The notes under the pieces were generated by a model. That model did not search any database. It was not told the origin of the DNA and saw only the letters and a list, made by a program, of their open reading frames with translations. DNA of 64,000 nucleotides from Mesobacillus jeotgali (GTDB lineage Bacteria; Bacillota; Bacilli; Bacillales; Cytobacillaceae): positions 3,408,501 through 3,472,500 of the forward strand of contig NZ_CP134494.1 of NCBI RefSeq assembly GCF_031759225.1. The letters are read 5' to 3'. A program made the translations under genes and the position numbers. Shown here piece after piece: positions 2,542 through 63,507 of the stretch. Numbering within the stretch: the first letter of the stretch is position 1; the number at the start of each line of letters is the position of its first letter.

Positions 2542-4209
2542 TTAGCTCGTCTCTTTTTGAGTCAATTCCTCGGTTGCCTTTATGATTTGCTCTCTAGGGT
2601 GGTCTTTTACAAGGGCGACTTCAAAGACTTCACTCAGGTGGGTGACAGGAATGATCTCAATATCGGTGATTTCATTCAGGATGGTCTGGACATTTTCTTT
2701 TGGAATGATGACCTTTTTGGCACCTGCTTTTTTCGCGGCCTTCACTTTAGGGAAGACACCGCCAATCGGCTTCACATTGCCATGAATGCTGATTTCTCCT
2801 GTCATCGCGACCGTATTGTCCATCGGGATTTTATAGATGGCTGAATAAATCCCCGTCGCCATTGCGATTCCCGCAGATGGACCATCTATTGGGGTACCCC
2901 CCGGGAAGTTGACATGGATGTCGAACTCATCTGCCGGAACACCCATCGATCTGAGGACTGTGATAACATTTTCAATCGAGCCTCGTGCCATACTCTTTCG
3001 GCGTATTGATTTTCCTTGTCCGCCAATACTCTCTTCATCGACGATGCCCGTGATATTGATAGAACCTTTTTCTTTAGCTTTGATGACCGTCACTTCGATT
3101 TCAAGAAGTGCTCCTGTATTCGGGCCATATACGGCCAAGCCATTGACTAGGCCGATTGCTGATTTTTCATTAATCCGTCTTTCCATCCTTGGCGACAGCT
3201 GGCTTGAATGGACCACCCATTCAATTTCCTCTTCTTTAATGTAAGTACGTTCGTCTGTTATTGCCAATCCTGCGGCAATCTGAACCATATTAACGGCTTC
3301 ACGGCCATTTCGGGCATAATTCGATAAAATCTCAATCGCTTTTTCACTCATGGTCAACTGTACTTTTTCAGCAGCATTCCTTGCTACTTCAGAAATTTCC
3401 TCCTGGGAAAGTTCACGGAAAAACACTTCCATGCACCTCGACCTGATTGCCGGAGGAATTTCACTAGGAGTTCTCGTCGTCGCACCTACAAGACGGAAGT
3501 CTGCCGGGAGTCCGTTTTTGAAGATATCGTGGATATGGCTTGGTATTTGCGTGTTTTCTTCATTGTAATACGCACTCTCCAAGAACACTTTCCTGTCTTC
3601 CAGTACTTTTAAAAGCTTGTTCATTTGAATGGGATGCAGCTCACCAATCTCATCAATGAATAATACGCCGCCATGCGCATTGGTAACAGCACCTTGTTTC
3701 GGCTGAGGTATACCAGCCTGTCCCATCGCTCCTGCTCCTTGATAGATTGGGTCATGAACTGATCCGATCAACGGGTCGGCGATTCCTCTCTCATCAAACC
3801 TCGCCGTCGTGGCATCTAACTCAACAAATACCGAAGATTTTTTGAAGGGGGATTTTTCGTTTTGTTTCGCTTCTTCCAATACAAGCCTGGCCGCAGCTGT
3901 TTTCCCTACTCCCGGGGGGCCATAAATGATGACATGCTGCGGATTTGGCCCGCATAAAGCAGCTTTTAGTGCCTTGATTCCATCTTCCTGTCCAACAATG
4001 TCCCTGAAGCTTGAAGGCCTGACTTTTTCAGCTAGCGGTTCACTCAACGAAACCGATCTCATCTTCCTTAACTGTTCCATTTCCTTTCGGGATTCCCGAT
4101 CAATTGATACTTTTTGAGTTCGCTGATTCTTAAGTAAATTCCAGAAATACAGCCCGATGATGATTCCAAAAAACAGCTGTATGAATAAGGCGATTCCGGT
4201 CCAACTCAA
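2542..4209 (-). CDS. lonB: LonB, sporulation Lon-like ATP-dependent protease
   Basis: Membrane-tethered Lon homologue of spore formers; in B. subtilis it is made in the forespore (family knowledge). 555 residues, close to the usual ~552. One N-terminal membrane segment (about residues 5-26) replaces the LON substrate domain. Walker A GPPGVGKT lies at about 97-104, GGVLFIDEIGEL is the Walker B region, and the protease Ser sits in GTPIDGPSAGIA, with the Lys expected in the following GNVKPIGGVFPKVKAA stretch. The start is TTG, placed by GGGAGGGAATATAA. The same protein could be called a LonB/RadA-type protease; the order lonA-lonB-clpX makes lonB secure. Confidence 0.95.
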   Translation of the reverse strand: MSWTGIALFIQLFFGIIIGLYFWNLLKNQRTQKVSIDRESRKEMEQLRKMRSVSLSEPLAEKVRPSSFRDIVGQEDGIKALKAALCGPNPQHVIIYGPPGVGKTAAARLVLEEAKQNEKSPFKKSSVFVELDATTARFDERGIADPLIGSVHDPIYQGAGAMGQAGIPQPKQGAVTNAHGGVLFIDEIGELHPIQMNKLLKVLEDRKVFLESAYYNEENTQIPSHIHDIFKNGLPADFRLVGATTRTPSEIPPAIRSRCMEVFFRELSQEEISEVARNAAEKVQLTMSEKAIEILSNYARNGREAVNMVQIAAGLAITDERTYIKEEEIEWVVHSSQLSPRMERRINEKSAIGLVNGLAVYGPNTGALLEIEVTVIKAKEKGSINITGIVDEESIGGQGKSIRRKSMARGSIENVITVLRSMGVPADEFDIHVNFPGGTPIDGPSAGIAMATGIYSAIYKIPMDNTVAMTGEISIHGNVKPIGGVFPKVKAAKKAGAKKVIIPKENVQTILNEITDIEIIPVTHLSEVFEVALVKDHPREQIIKATEELTQKETS

Positions 4210-4361: not shown

Positions 4362-5248
4362 GTTGCTCATGTTCGGACAGCTTTTTTTCCTTTCCTGGTG
4401 AACCTGTCCGAAGTTGGCTCTTGTTCTGACAGCTTTTCCTCTAACACTATCAAACCTGTCCGAAGTTCGCTCTTGTTCTGACAGCTTTTCCTCTTTCTAC
4501 ACCAAACCTGTCCGAAGTTGCCCTTCCTTCAGACAGTTTTTCCTCTTTCTACACCAAACCTGTCTAAAGTTACCCCTACTTCTGACAGCTTTTAGCCTTT
4601 CATCGCCAAACCTGTCCGAAGTTGGCTCTTGTTCTGACAGCTTTTCCTCTTTTTACACCAAACCTGTCCGAAGTTGCCCTTACTTCTGACAGCTTTTCCT
4701 CTTTCTACACCAAACCTGTCCGAAGTTGCCCTTCCTTCTGACAGCTTTTCCTCTTTCTACAACAAACCTGTCTAAAGTTACCACTACTTCTGACAGCTTT
4801 TAGCCTTTCATCACCAAACCTGTCCGAAGTTGGCTCTTGTTCTGACAGCTTTTCCTCTTTTTACACCAAACCTGTCCGAAGTTGCCCTTCCTTCAGACAG
4901 TTTTTCCTCTTTCTACACCAAACCTGTCTAAAGTTACCCCTACTTCTGACAGCTTTTAGCCTTTCATCACCAAACCTGTTCGAAGTTGGCTCTTGTTCTG
5001 ACAGCTTTTCCTCTTTCTACACCAAACCTGTCTAAAGTTGCCCTTACTTCTGACAGCTTTTCACCTTTCACTATCATACCTGTCCGAAGTTGGCTCTTGT
5101 TCTGACAGCTTTTCCTCTTTCTACACCAAACCTGTCCGAAGTTGCCCTTTCTTCTTACAGCTTTTCCTCTTTCTACACCAAACCTGTCTAAAGTTGCCCT
5201 TACTTCTGACAGCTTTTCACCTTTCACTATCATACCTGTCCGAAGTTC
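4362..5248. repeat. 17-unit 52-bp tandem array of hairpin elements
   Basis: Units beginning CCTGTCCGAAGTT start at 4403, 4455, 4507, 4559 and every 52 bp to 5235 with no indel; a degraded unit precedes 4403. Each unit holds an inverted repeat CTGTC..GAA / TTC..GACAG (about 18 nt between CTGTC and GACAG) followed by CTTTTCCTCTTTCTACACCAAAC. Units fall into types that differ at the centre (GGCTCTTGTT, GCCCTTCCTT, ACCCCTACTT) and recur in order. The array fills the gap between the clpX terminator and lonB. 52 is not a multiple of 3 and no reading frame is conserved, so it is not coding. The period is too short and the units too alike for a CRISPR array. Confidence 0.97.
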
Positions 5249-5292
5249 CCCCTGGTTTCCAACAACATTAGCAACTTCAGAGCAATCTCCAC

Positions 5293-5322
5293 AAATAAAA
5301 AACCCGGTGAACAATCACCGGG
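5293..5322 (-). terminator. Terminator after clpX
   Basis: Perfect 8-bp stem CCCGGTGA/TCACCGGG (5303-5322) with an ACAA loop, followed on the minus strand by TTTTTTATTT. Confidence 0.93.
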
Positions 5323-5331
5323 ATTTGTGTA

Positions 5332-6594
5332 TTACGCTGAGTTTCTTTCGTCTTTAAGGACTGTACCGTCTTCTAGCACTAGCTTTGGAGGCATGTTGTT
5401 TTCGATTGTTTCCTTTGTGATGATGCATTTAACAATGTCTTCACGTGAAGGAAGGTCGAACATGACATCCAGCATGACGCCTTCGATGATTGAACGAAGT
5501 CCACGCGCACCTGTTTTGCGCTCAATTGCCTTCTTGGCAATTTCAATCAGGGCGTCATCTTCGAATTCAAGCTCGACATCATCCAGCTCAAGCATTTTTT
5601 GATACTGTTTTACAAGTGCGTTCTTCGGTTTTGTCAGGATTTCGACTAGCGCCTCTTCATCGAGCGGAGTCAAGCTAGCAATTACTGGTAGACGACCGAT
5701 GAATTCAGGGATCAACCCAAATTTCAGCAAGTCTTCAGGAAGCACTTTAGACAGCAATTCCTTCTTATCCAAGTCTTCCTCTTTCTTTTCAGAGCCAAAG
5801 CCAATTACTTTTTGGCCAAGGCGGCGCTTGATGATTTGCTCGATTCCGTCGAATGCTCCTCCGCAAATGAACAGGATATTCGTCGTATCGATTTGGATGA
5901 ATTCTTGATGTGGATGCTTTCGTCCACCTTGTGGCGGTACGCTCGCAACGGTTCCTTCAAGGATTTTCAATAGTGCCTGCTGTACGCCTTCACCGGAAAC
6001 ATCTCTAGTAATAGAAGGGTTTTCGGATTTTCTGGCGATTTTATCGATTTCATCGATGTAAATGATTCCTTTTTCGGCTTTCTCTACATCGTAATCAGCT
6101 GATTGGATCAGTTTTAGAAGAATGTTTTCAACGTCTTCTCCAACATAACCTGCTTCTGTCAATGACGTTGCATCCGCGATTGCGAACGGAACATTAAGAA
6201 TGCGCGCCAATGTTTGGGCAAGTAAAGTTTTACCGCTTCCTGTCGGCCCAATCATCGCAATGTTACTCTTTGACAGTTCGACATCATCGATCTTGCTGTT
6301 CGAGTTGATACGCTTATAGTGATTGTAAACGGCTACAGATAAATTTTTCTTAGCCTGGTCCTGGCCAATTACATACTCATTAAGAATATCGCGGATTTCC
6401 TGTGGCTTAGGAACATCCTTAAACTCAACTTCTTCTTCAGTGCCAAGTTCTTCTTCAACGATTTCTGTGCATAATTCAATACACTCGTCACAGATATAGA
6501 CGCCTGGCCCTGCTACCAATTTGCGGACTTGATCCTGCGTCTTGCCGCAGAAAGAACATTTGAGCTGTCCTTTTTCATCATTAAATTTGAACAA
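5332..6594 (-). CDS. clpX: ClpX, ATPase subunit of ClpXP protease
   Basis: Hexameric AAA+ unfoldase that recognises substrates and feeds them into ClpP. Zinc-binding domain with Cys13, Cys16, Cys35 and Cys38; Walker A GPTGSGKT at 116-123; Walker [12 protein letters not shown]; ClpP-docking loop region GRLPVIA-type sequence further on. I place the start at TTG 6594 ([11 protein letters not shown]), not at the upstream ATG at 6624: AAGGGGTGA lies 5 nt before the TTG, and this gives 420 residues, the family length, with the usual MFKFNxEKG beginning. tig lies upstream on the same strand behind a terminator, so clpX has its own promoter somewhere in 6630-6870. Confidence 0.96.
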
Positions 6595-6876
6595 TGCCTT
6601 CACCCCTTGAGAACTTCTAAACATATATAAAGCTGCGATTCATAAGCAAACGATAAGTTAAGTAACAGTTTTTCTGCTGCTTTCGAGCAGGTATGTATTG
6701 CATTGTATCACATTTTGCCATAGTACAGGAAATAATAACCCTCGGCGGTTTTTTTGTTCGCGCTTATGAACCGAAAAAAATATGTACTAAATCATCTTAT
6801 CCATAAATCGAGCCGTTAAATCGACTTAGAGCAAATTGCTAAAAAATTATGTATGTATATCGGTGTTAATTGTAGA

Positions 6877-10485: not shown

Positions 10486-10541
10486 TGTTTTACCGCCTAA
10501 ATTTCTTGCTGGAAAAATTATTCTCTTATTCAATCAAGATA

Positions 10542-10632
10542 ATTGCACGAAATAATCCGTTATTTGCACGCTTAAGGCTATTAATTGCACGAATATCTAC
10601 ATTAATTGCACCATCCATCGTATTAATTGCAC
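10542..10632. repeat. Five-copy 21-bp iteron-like array
   Basis: TTGCAC occurs at 10543, 10564, 10585, 10606 and 10627, exactly 21 bp apart five times, mostly within TTAATTGCAC(GAA). The bases between vary. It lies between leuC and leuD. Confidence 0.9.
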
Positions 10633-10657
10633 AATTAGCCTAAATCTGGAAAAATCA

Positions 10658-18253: not shown

Positions 18254-18560
18254 AATAAAAAAGCCCATCCATCTCCATATGCCTAAGGTTGCCCTAGACA
18301 AAGGGATGGAATAGGCTTTATCTCCTTGTTCCACGGTACCACCCTTCTTCACGCATAATGCGTGCGCTCGTGACAGCCTCAGCTGCCGGTTTTGATAACA
18401 AGTGCCAAGCACTCGACCAGTTTTACTAGGATTCCTTTCAAACTGGCGCTCCAAGGTGAGTTCACTTATTGCGGCATCACCGGCTTCCAGCTACCCCGGC
18501 TCTCTGTGCATGCTGATCGCAATAAATTACTTGTCCCTGTCCTCGCTTTATCCTTATTCA
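18254..18560 (-). ncRNA. T-box leader, leucine specifier (ilvB operon)
   Basis: The T-box sequence GAAGGGTGGTACCGTGG lies at 18331-18347 (minus strand). Upstream are Stem I landmarks: the GGACAAGTA bulge region, the distal GAGAGCCGGGGT part, and the specifier loop AGTGAA-CTC-ACCTTGG, with CTC (Leu) at 18458-18460. The terminator is the imperfect AAAGCCTATTCCATC / GATGGATGGGCTT stem followed by TTTTTTATTTT (18254-18322). It sits between ilvE and ilvB, so it acts as an internal attenuator. When tRNA-Leu is uncharged, the antiterminator forms and ilvB-leuD are transcribed (family knowledge). Confidence 0.95.
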
Positions 18561-33398: not shown

Positions 33399-33433
33399 AC
33401 TATGCTTAAAACCCTTTTACTGCTTGGCAAGCG

Positions 33434-33545
33434 CCGAAATCGTTCACTCTCTCCGATTTCGGGCACATGTTCCTCTTTCTTCTTACCGAAATCCTCGCAT
33501 TCACCGAACTTCGGGCACATGTTCCTCTTTCTTCTTACCGAAACT
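33434..33545. repeat. Short 52-bp hairpin array between yslB and lysC
   Basis: CCGAAA(T/C)TC-type units begin at 33434, 33486 and 33538, exactly 52 bp apart. Unit 1 has a perfect inverted repeat CCGAAATC/GATTTCGG with a 13-nt loop, followed by GGCACATGTTCCTCTTTCTTCTTA. The linker shares TTCCTCTTTCT with the linker of the 52-bp array at 4362-5248, though the stems differ. No gene in this 270-bp gap. Confidence 0.8.
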
Positions 33546-33610
33546 CATCACATTCACCTAACGATAGAAAGCCTTCCCGGTACACCAGGAAAGCTTTTAC
33601 CATTCCTCTA

Positions 33611-34937: not shown

Positions 34938-35170
34938 ACAGAAAAAGCAATGGAAGTGGCTCCCATTGCTTGATAAACGTGTATATACGCTGCAACATGA
35001 GATAGCACTCCAAGATGGCAATCTTGACAATCCAGCGTTTGTTCAACGAAGGACCAGCGTGAAAATGGATAGGCATTTTCCCACTTCGGCGAACATTCCC
35101 TTTCAAAGCCCATCTCTGAATCCTACAATTCTCCAGACTTTTACTCTTGAAGCTCGCACCTCTATCTTCA
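34938..35170 (-). ncRNA. Lysine riboswitch (L box) of lysC
   Basis: P1 arms AGATAGAGGTGC (35155-35167) and GGAGTGCTATCTC (34999-35011) on the minus strand. The conserved core includes AGGTGCGAGCTTCAAGAGTA, GAAAGGGAATGTTCGCCGAAG and CGCTGGATTGTCAAGATTGCC-type segments. The expression platform is a terminator, AAGCAATGG/CCATTGCTT (34945-34971), followed by TTTTTCTGTTTTTT. Lysine binding favours termination (class knowledge). Confidence 0.95.
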
Positions 35171-35241
35171 CTTTAATGCTCTAAAGTGATAGCTATATGA
35201 AATTTTTATCATTATAGCATACCTAAAAATAGAATGCTACA

Positions 35242-59715: not shown

Positions 59716-62130
59716 TTATCCTCTTAATACTGCCCCAGCTTTTTCTTCAAGAGCTGCAAGTACCTTATTGTGTGCTTTTGCAATGTCTTCATCTGTCAGT
59801 GTTTTTTCCGGATCGAAGTATTTCAGGGAGAATGCCAGTGATTTCTTGCCTTCTTCCATTTTCTCACCTTCGTAAAGGTCGAAAACATTTACTTCTTTTA
59901 ATAAAGATCCACCAGCTTCAGTGATGATCTTCTCCAGATCGCCGGCAGCAGTTCCTTTTTCAACAACAAGGGCAATATCCCTTGTGATGGACGGGAAGCG
60001 CGGGATTGCTGTGTACTGAAGCGGCGCTGTTTCTGCTTCTAATAATGCTTTTAGGGATAACTCGAATACATACGTTTCTTTCAGGTCAAGTGCTTTCTGC
60101 TGAGTTGGATGAACCTGGCCGATGAAACCGATGGCATTGCCATTAAGCAGAATTTCAGCGGTACGCCCTGGGTGCAATCCGTCAAGCTCAGCCTTCACGA
60201 AACCTAACTGGCGCTCGAGGCCCAGCTTTGCGAATAAGCCTTCAACGATGCCTTTAAGGACGAAGAAATCAACAGACTTCTTTTCTCCCTGCCATGGATG
60301 GCTTTCCCACAGGCCAGTAATGGCTGCAGCAAGATGTTCACGCTCTTCTGGAAGCTCTTCACTGTTGTTTTTCAGGAAAACAGCACCAGTTTCATATACA
60401 GCTACACTGTCAATCTGGCGGGCATTATTGTATTTTAATACTTCAAGCAGCTGGGGCACGATGCTCAATCGCAACAGGCTGCGATCTTCACTCATTGGCA
60501 TCGCCAGTTCAACAGGCTCGCGCTTATCCAATGCATATTGGGTTGCCTTCTCTGCACTAGTCAGGGAATACGTAACGGCCTGGTAAAGACCCGCACCTTC
60601 CATGTAGCGGCGGACAACACGGCGCTTTTTCTGGTACTCCGATAAATGCCCTGGCGTTGATGGACCTTCAGGAAGGGTTGTCGGCAGATTGTCGTATCCA
60701 TATAGACGGCCAACTTCTTCGACTAAATCCTCTTCAATCGTGATATCCCCACGGCGAGTAGGAACTGTTACTGTAATGATGTCATTATCAACAGATGTTT
60801 CGAACTTCAGGCGGGCAAAAATATCCTCAACCTGCTTCATTTCAAGGTCTGTTCCCAATACTTTATTGATCTTTCCCAGGGTGGTTGAAACAACAGCTGG
60901 CTTCACATCAAGCGAATCTGCTTCGACTTTGCCTCCAAGTACTTCTCCTCCAGCCAGTTCAATCAAAAGCTGGGCAGCGCGTTCTGCCGCTGGGCGCACT
61001 CTCGCTGGATCTACACCTTTTTCATAGCGTGAGCTTGCTTCGCTTCGTAAACCATGGTCCTTCGAAGCCTTGCGGATCGCCCCGCCTGTAAAATAAGCGG
61101 ACTCAAGCAGGACAGTCGTTGTATCGTTGCCTACCTCGGAATTCGCTCCGCCCATGACACCAGCAAGTGCCACTGGCTCTGATCCGTTCGTGATAACTAG
61201 GTGATCAGGTGTCAAAGTGCGTTTAACATCATCCAGCGTTTCGATCACTTCGCCATCTTTTGCGCGACGGACCAGGATTTCTTTTGATCCCAATTTATCG
61301 TAATCGAATGCGTGAAGCGGCTGGCCGTACTCCAATAAGATAAAGTTCGTGATATCAACTACATTATTGTGAGGGCGGATGCCTGCAGCCATCAATCTTG
61401 TTTGCAGCCAGACCGGTGAAGGACCAACCTTGACATTCTTGATTACTTTCGCAACGTATAGAGGATTATCTTCTTTCGCTTCGACATTTACGCTGATATA
61501 GTCACTAGCCTGCTCTGAAGAAGTTTCAGGCTGTGGATTAGGAAGCTTGATCTCCTTGCCAAGAATCGCTCCAACCTCATATGCAACACCAAGCATGCTC
61601 ATCGCATCAGCACGGTTTGGCGTCAAGCCAAGCTCAAGGATTTCGTCATCTCTGTTAAGGACTTCTAGCGCGTCCTGGCCGATTTCTGTGTCAGGAGTGA
61701 AATTGTAAATACCCTCAGCATACTCTTTCGGCGCAAGTTTGCCTTCAATACCAAGCTCCTGAAGCGAGCAAATCATCCCATGGGATTCCTCACCGCGAAG
61801 CTTTGCCTTTTTAATTTTGAAGTTCCCTGGTAAAACTGCACCAACTGTTGCAACTGCTACCTTCTGTCCTTTGCCGACATTTGGCGCGCCGCAGATAATC
61901 TGGACTGTCTCACCGTTTCCAAGGTCAACGAGTGTTTTGTTAAGTTTTTCTGCATTTGGGTGCTTTTCGCATTCAAGCACATGGCCGACAACTACGCCCT
62001 TCAAACCCTCATTTAATTTTTCAACGCCTTCTACTTCGATACCGCTTTTCGTGATTTTTTCAGCGAGCTCTTCAGCAGATACGCCTTCCAAATCGATATA
62101 TTCCTGCAGCCATTTATATGATACCAACAT
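59716..62130 (-). CDS. pheT: Phenylalanine-tRNA ligase beta subunit
   Basis: Class II synthetase, tRNA-binding and editing subunit. 804 residues. tRNA-binding EMAP/OB domain near 40-150 ([21 protein letters not shown]), B3/B4 editing domain (about 200-385), B5 (about 400-475), and the C-terminal ferredoxin-like anticodon-binding domain ([20 protein letters not shown], about 712-731). ATG behind TTAGGAGGGTAAAACC, 19 bp after pheS. Confidence 0.97.
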
Positions 62131-62149
62131 GGTTTTACCCTCCTAATAC

Positions 62150-63187
62150 TTATTCTTCAACTGAAAATTGCTTCAAGAAACGGACATCGTTTGTATAGAA
62201 ATGACGGATGTCATCTACTCCATACTTGAGCATCGCGATACGCTCAGGTCCCATTCCGAATGCAAATCCGGTGTATTTCTTCGAATCATAGCCGGCCATT
62301 TCCAATACGTTCGGATGGACCATCCCTGCTCCGAGGATCTCAATCCAGCCAGTTCCCTTACATACACTGCAGCCGGATCCGCCGCAGATTTTGCAGGAAA
62401 TATCCATTTCGACAGATGGCTCAGTGAAAGGGAAGAAACTTGGGCGCAGACGGATTTCGCGGTCTTCGCCAAACATTTTCTTTGCAAAAACTTCTAGTGT
62501 ACCTTTAAGATCGCTCATTCTCACGTTCTCATCGACGACAAGTCCCTCAATCTGCATGAACTGATGAGAGTGTGTCGCATCATCGTTATCACGGCGATAT
62601 ACCTTGCCCGGGCAAATGATTTTAACAGGCCCCTTTCCCTGATGCTTTTCCATCGTCCTTGCCTGAACAGGGGATGTATGTGTGCGCATCAATGTTTCTT
62701 CTGTGATATAGAAGGAATCCTGCATATCACGCGCTGGATGTCCCTTAGGAAGGTTCAATGCTTCAAAGTTATAATAGTCTTTTTCAACTTCAGGGCCTTC
62801 TTCCACTGTGTAACCCATGCCGATGAAAAGATCTTCAATTTCTTCAATGATGCTCGTAAGCGGATGATGGCTGCCAGTCTTCACAGGTCTGCCAGGAAGG
62901 GTAATATCAATTTCTTCAGCTGCCAATTGTTTTTGGACAGCTGCTTCCTCAAGCTCTTTTTGCTTCACTTCGATTTGGCCTGAAATGGCATCGCGGACTT
63001 CGTTGGCCAGGGCACCCATTTTCGGCCTTTCTTCAGCCGATAATTTGCCCATTCCTTTTAAAACTTCAGTGATTGGACCCTTCTTTCCAAGATAGGAAAC
63101 GCGAATATCATTCAATTCTTTAAGGTCAGCTGCTGCAGCCACTTTTTCAAGTGCCTCAGCCTGCAGTTCTTTTAAACGATCCTGCAT
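62150..63187 (-). CDS. pheS: Phenylalanine-tRNA ligase alpha subunit
   Basis: Catalytic subunit of PheRS. 345 residues. N-terminal coiled coil (1-85), class II motif 1 region ([21 protein letters not shown], about 108-128), motif 2 [22 protein letters not shown], CxxC-type zinc-like segment [17 protein letters not shown] (about 274-290), motif 3 [16 protein letters not shown]. Start ATG 63187 behind GAAGGAGGATTTAAC. Expression is set by the Phe T-box. Confidence 0.97.
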
Positions 63188-63220: not shown

Positions 63221-63482
63221 CACAAAAAGACCTCATCCCAGATAAAGGGACGAGGTCTATGGTTTCGCGGTACCACCCTTTTTAACAGGCAATACAGTTA
63301 TGTATTACGTGTTCGCTTCATTGAGATAACGGCTTGTGCCGATGCATCTTTACGCCTTTTAAAAGCGGTCCCGATGCCAACTCTGGAGGTGAACTTCGCT
63401 TGTCTGTTCCATAAAAATGCTTCCAGTCACCGGCATTTTCTCCCTGGATGGCCATCCTCAAGCTACTTTTCTCCGTCATCGT
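63221..63482 (-). ncRNA. T-box leader, phenylalanine specifier (pheST)
   Basis: T-box AAAAGGGTGGTACCGCGAAACC at about 63259-63283 (minus strand). Stem I with AGAAAAGTA near its base and specifier loop GCGAAG-TTC-ACCTCC, TTC (Phe) at 63391-63393. Terminator: 11-bp GACCTCATCCC/GGGACGAGGTC stem (63229-63258) followed by TTTTTGTG. Confidence 0.95.
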
Positions 63483-63507
63483 TTTTGAAATATTAATTTT
63501 GCTGTTT

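Follow-up and report, generated by a model that had tools for sequence, protein, structure and literature searches.

Between the genes clpX and lonB of Mesobacillus jeotgali lies a run of 52-bp units that differ in sequence and keep their length. What is this array, and does it act as DNA, as RNA or not at all? The window analysed here is a stretch of 64,000 nucleotides from this genome, and positions in it are used for the following features.

2542..4209, minus strand: lonB-type Lon protease gene, 555 aa, downstream neighbour of the array (Pfam Lon_C, AAA)
4366..5249, minus strand: tandem array of 17 52-bp elements, GACAGGTTT-13 bp-GAAAAGCTGTC in this orientation, which is the leading strand here
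5303..5322, minus strand: terminator-like hairpin with T tail, 3' of clpX, between clpX and the array (consensus scan)
5332..6624, minus strand: clpX, 430 aa, upstream neighbour of the array (Pfam zf-C4_ClpX, AAA_2)
33404..33587, minus strand: second short period-52 array of different sequence (TRF: 33458-33562, 2 copies)

The array between clpX and lonB

All 16 steps of the array are exactly 52 bp, and positions 4366-5249 equal 17 x 52, in agreement with the 17 units and the 52-bp period described in a sequence-only reading of this DNA. That reading had also named the two neighbours correctly, as seen from the Pfam domains of both products, and its pyrimidine-rich linker on the plus strand is borne out by a purine fraction of 0.32 across the array. 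The program TRF reported period 52 with 80% matches and 5% indels in its own alignment, and a better match at period 156 (87%, 0% indels), indicating a higher-order repeat. The CTGTC/GACAG inverted repeat proposed earlier is present; however, the compact plus-strand hairpin, CTGTC-short loop-GACAG, is the join between two elements and belongs to another register. A coding role was rejected, as 52 is not divisible by three and the internal ORFs are presumably artefacts of the repeat.

The second array lies between convergent ORFs; it is pyrimidine-rich on the plus strand and purine-rich on the leading strand. The window also holds a degenerate noncoding 21/42-bp tandem repeat (10513-10643, TTAATTGCACGAAT-like) of the other constant-size class, and an ordinary lysine riboswitch (34995-35172) and T-box leaders (18299-18552 and 63243-63488).

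Spacing and anatomy of the element

The array matches at least 42 stretches at no fewer than 34 places in the 4.63-Mb genome (40 of 48 candidates scored), and TRF gave period 52 at all 34 fetched places. Together with family matches in 19 of 21 Mesobacillus genomes, all except G011 and G019, this indicates that the array is no isolated case. The core pattern GACAGGTTN{4,30}AAGCTGTC occurs 336 times genome-wide versus 0 for the reversed control pattern, with a gap of 17 bp in all but three among the matches listed. It adds copies beyond the 34 places, for example at 61,948-62,500 and 183,460-184,221. We catalogued 44 arrays, none of them inside a called gene, and scored the 33 with three or more copies of the polar motif. 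Three arrays (L016, L020 and L027) follow an approximately 99% identical 3-kb stretch without a called gene, probably rRNA operons.

Spacing is nearly constant. In the 33 scored arrays, GYTGTC-GYTGTC distances of 30-75 bp are 52 bp in 354 of 364 cases (51 in three, 53 in five and 34 in two), and the first half-site is 25 bp from the second in 373 of 377 in-unit cases. Successive detected units are on average 6.57 substitutions apart (n = 348). Arbitrary unit lengths were not seen in the relatives either, as 52 bp is also the distance in 269 of the 287 spacings (range 30-75 bp) of their fetched pieces; the orthologous arrays L055 and L057 have one deviant step each (103 and 204). Thus the earlier claim that bases change without a single indel holds strictly for the window array and nearly, but not absolutely, genome-wide. 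Over 45 species pairs, which are not independent of one another, the noncoding tail beside the clpX-lonB array accumulated 1057 mismatches against 319 gap events. Judged against this ratio in adjacent noncoding DNA, length change looks strongly suppressed inside the arrays, by a factor that depends on the aligner.

Each element consists of two inverted, unequal half-sites. On the leading strand of 29 arrays, the GACAGG half-site comes first in 24, the GCTGTC half-site comes last in 28, and both hold in 23; the register of the element was set by these ends. Across the 29 array consensuses the half-site cores show little or no variation, with GACAG and CTGTC in all of them when C/T is allowed at one position. 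Several linker columns carry 0.03-0.7 bit and an A-rich pair more, at a fixed linker length. Purines make up 78.5% of the linker on the leading strand, compared with 52.6% in other, non-array noncoding DNA. The pair 5/27 is G/G in 29/29 consensuses, which gives the element a fixed asymmetry.

Such inverted half-sites would let the units fold, and array transcripts might act as repeated hairpin RNAs, either small RNAs or sponges. RNA-seq of B. coagulans indeed showed 52-nt repeats to be transcribed (PMC8161180, section 4.1). However, the arms do not stay complementary from array to array: position -1 pairs in only 10 of the 29 consensuses, -2 in 7 and -6 in 4, the 5/27 pair is G/G throughout, and no stem covariation or compensatory base change was found among these consensuses. 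In addition, a terminator precedes the window array (the scan found 2 terminator-like sites versus 0.8 expected from shuffles), the promoter-like sites inside it are two weak, repeat-borne matches on the plus strand only, and Rfam gave no match there. We therefore consider an RNA role improbable.

The sequence-only reading had noted that 52 bp is close to five helical turns, and the phasing of A/T fits this. The A/T power at 10.4 bp was reached by 6 of 5000 noncoding control sets for the main family, whose 29 consensuses are related to one another, and by 5 of 5000 for 17 other families. In an AA/TT version of the test the numbers were 0/5000 for the main family and a weak 378/5000 for the other families, in which periods of 52/8 and 52/3 outscore 10.4 bp. 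Inverted repeats at z>2 versus shuffles were found in 15 of 29 other-family units, and none in 14. Conserved half-sites, a fixed and less conserved linker, unpaired arms and the 10.4-bp A/T phasing favour a role as double-stranded DNA bound by protein over an RNA hairpin. The earlier preference for protein binding or packing over an RNA role is thus partly borne out by half-sites, arms and phasing, while the binder and any chromosome packing are putative.

Orientation, persistence and the 52-bp class

In this genome dnaA is at 334, and the GC skew changes sign somewhere within 2.26-2.42 Mb. The polar motif lies mainly on the leading strand in 33/33 scored arrays (712 versus 20 copies). This orientation holds in all 14 arrays with a lagging-strand neighbour, including both of those with two. 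Of the lagging-strand neighbours, ten were scanned: six belong to four of these 14 arrays, the other four to two other-family arrays. Each has a Pfam match over the cut-off, which marks the six as real genes. The gaps that hold the 44 arrays are co-directional in 24 cases, convergent in 10 and divergent in 6, with 4 without a call. Therefore, array orientation follows replication independently of gene strand, which also speaks against an RNA role. The sequence-only reading had missed this orientation, and likewise that the repeat class and the idea of a nucleoid protein had been published before (PMC8161180). Among the other-family arrays of this genome, 12 of 15 are purine-rich on the leading strand (four of the 15 carry the polar motif). 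Fork orientation of 52-nt repeats was not found in the literature searched, which covered the main text of PMC8161180; in that main text the terms 'orientation' and 'leading strand' have 0 occurrences.

A two-arc model, fitted to the data themselves with 150 of 157 matches listed, accounts for 126 of the 133 listed places in five relatives (G010 33/33, G008 24/24, G020 19/19, G003 25/26 and G006 25/31). Most of the six G006 places off the fit are a near-palindromic subtype with purine 0.40-0.54 and without clear direction. The array L196 of G006 (17.5 units) is clearly opposite to the fork. In the M. jeotgali genome, L041 (2.6 units, at 2,267,025 near the skew change, left out by the 140-bp length filter) would be opposite under the 2.30-Mb boundary chosen here. 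The terminus is not pinned there, because the skew values waver, being -0.012 in the region of L041 and +0.031 and -0.080 in the next samples.

The arrays turn over while their places persist. The window array and its counterpart in G006 have 17 units each without unit-by-unit correspondence. Among 20 regions of G008 and G010 chosen for positions resembling those of the M. jeotgali arrays, both flanks align to the corresponding array locus in 17, partly in one and not in two; TRF called no array in one of the 17 (L248). Copy number does vary, a point raised earlier, as orthologous arrays differ up to several fold. The clpX-lonB gap of M. boroniphilus (L059) holds an apparent decayed single-element remnant at the orthologous site. 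In the fetched piece of a very long window-family array in G003 (L214, about 2,750,163-2,753,848), 63 steps measure exactly 52 bp, and matches shifted by 416 bp point to a possible eight-unit higher-order repeat.

The 52-bp period extends beyond the window-array family. Twenty 20-kb pieces of this genome (400 kb, 8 kb masked), placed away from known arrays, gave another 12 arrays with a period of 51-53, most of them differing in sequence from the window array. In a survey in which part of the DNA had been picked for having arrays, 139 noncoding arrays with 2.5 or more copies had periods of 51-53 (98), 20-21 (27), 40-42 (5), 104 (2) or elsewhere (7); 29 at 51-53 and 25 at 20-21 lack GACAG/CTGTC. 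The 31 arrays of the coding class had period 52 in four, 20 in one and 10 in one. Family matches were found in 37 of 193 genomes of the taxonomic family and 16 of 249 of the order, own genus included. The 80 named lonB loci include five Mesobacillus-like loci (L054-L058) with the window-array family in the clpX-lonB gap; L103, L121 and L128 hold an unrelated 51-52-bp array in the gap, and L064, L065 and L099 have a 52-53-bp array after lonB. Several Neobacillus carry 21-bp arrays in the clpX-lonB gap. In another family, G339 has three period-52 arrays in 120 kb, two of them from regions picked around matches; no period-52 array was found in 100 kb each of G198 and G201. A genome of another genus (G021) holds a 28-copy period-53 array with 0% indels (L170, 1368-2875).

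Could these arrays be neutral or selfish satellites? In that case the arrays would lengthen and shorten as slippage or unequal exchange acts on the lagging-strand template, their period and direction would stem from copying together with strand mutation bias, and they would have no function. The several-fold differences in copy number, units homogenised within arrays without unit-by-unit orthology, the 156-bp higher-order repeats and a general leading-strand purine excess (0.526 in non-array noncoding DNA) all agree with this. However, the linker purine fraction of 0.785 is far above that background, the same period in unrelated sequences and near-invariant half-sites are unexpected from slippage, and the arrays persist at orthologous sites. 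We regard a neutral origin as rather unlikely.

Mobile hairpins of the REP/REPIN type, spread by a Y1 transposase (RAYT or IS200-type) on the lagging-strand template, would be another source. The half-sites, paired and inverted, are reminiscent of REP doublets; in P. fluorescens SBW25 the orientation of tandem REP arrays is forward in one replichore and reverse in the second (PMC3116915); and Y1_Tnp is found in 18 of 21 genomes of the genus. Yet the Y1 transposases do not track the arrays: G016, with 27 array matches, and G020, with 34, lack Y1_Tnp, G011 has Y1_Tnp and no array match, and the three Y1 copies (176 aa) of the M. jeotgali genome have no array-like sequence at their loci. The 17 orthologous sites among 20 regions may also speak against mobility, these regions having been chosen by position. 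A Y1 transposase origin was rejected, and this kind of spread is disfavoured as very improbable.

A proposed directional satellite and its relation to known systems

We propose that the array is a directional satellite acting at the DNA level through protein binding, a reading to which we give slightly less than an even chance. Each 52-bp element has two inverted but unequal half-sites. With a repeat every five helical turns, half-sites of the same kind would face the same side of the helix, and a protein could therefore polymerise along the array. The unequal half-sites would give the array its direction, which follows the replication fork regardless of the strand of adjacent genes. Unequal exchange would renew the units; sequence and copy number would therefore drift, while half-sites, spacing and direction would stay. 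Anatomy, spacing, direction and kept positions are seen in the arrays themselves. The putative protein may bind, polymerise and help to organise the chromosome or to sense the direction of the fork or of segregation. The recurrence of periods 51-53 in unrelated sequences appears to support such a protein-binding satellite. Counted against protein binding are L196, the six G006 places, L041, the two genomes without the family (G011 and G019), the weak AA/TT test in other families and the 14 of 29 other-family units without an inverted repeat.

A wider and more speculative reading, well short of an even chance, is that 52-bp satellites are directional chromosome marks, that is, asymmetric, helically phased sites for a putative polymerising protein with their direction bound to replication. 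They would then be a bacterial counterpart of satellite chromatin with the monomer length set by the protein; this belongs to the same joint estimate. If true, it would explain the constant length with drifting sequence, the G/G asymmetry, the gene-independent orientation and the kept positions. The polymerising reader protein, if real, would represent a novel form of bacterial chromatin that is defined by sequence.

Constant-size tandem repeats of 52 or 20-21 nt with variable sequence were published for Bacillus by Subirana and Messeguer in 2021 (PMC8161180), who called the 52-nt repeats enigmatic and without known function and proposed a polymerising or nucleoid protein, or small RNAs. Since the array is not a one-off and the class is in print, it is another case of a known kind of repeat, and it belongs to this published, unexplained class. 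Their tables list B. selenatarsenatis (= M. selenatarsenatis) with 49 repeats of 51-53 nt, common to B. boroniphilus and B. subterraneus, and for B. alkalitelluris the signal AAAGCTGTC, the same half-site as that of the window array. The likeness to the class described in PMC8161180 extends to period 51-53, noncoding location, several families per genome, 20-21-nt repeats alongside, and short shared signals with their reverse in one repeat; other noncoding lengths are rare here (7/139 outside 20-21, 40-42, 51-53 and 104). Positional conservation between B. coagulans strains was only partial in PMC8161180, whereas 17/20 position-chosen arrays are orthologous here. Replication orientation, element boundaries, the fixed asymmetry and A/T phasing were not found in its main text. 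With fork orientation, a bounded unequal element and kept positions, 'constant size, variable sequence' becomes a set of claims that can be tested, on the binder, on spacing and on the inversion of an array.

REPINs and tandem REP arrays of SBW25 are similar in their inverted half-site pairs, intergenic location and opposite orientation on the two replichores; however, they have spacings of 71, 110 and 184 bp and are RAYT-linked (PMC3116915), whereas no consistent Y1 transposase accompanies the arrays here. CRISPR arrays also have regular, partly palindromic direct repeats, but their unique spacers are absent here, as every part of the window array repeats.

The motifs SRS and KOPS, which guide SpoIIIE and FtsK, are leading-strand-skewed and directionally read. 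They share this skew with the present elements, but are dispersed single octamers instead of arrays. In 33,302 bp of array DNA the SRS octamer GAGAAGGG was found one time, versus 7 times in the 400-kb sample; it is not enriched, on few events. Eukaryotic alpha satellites combine a fixed monomer length, drifting sequence and higher-order repeats. They differ in that the window-family arrays are dispersed in short gaps, and the chromatin protein is here a putative one.
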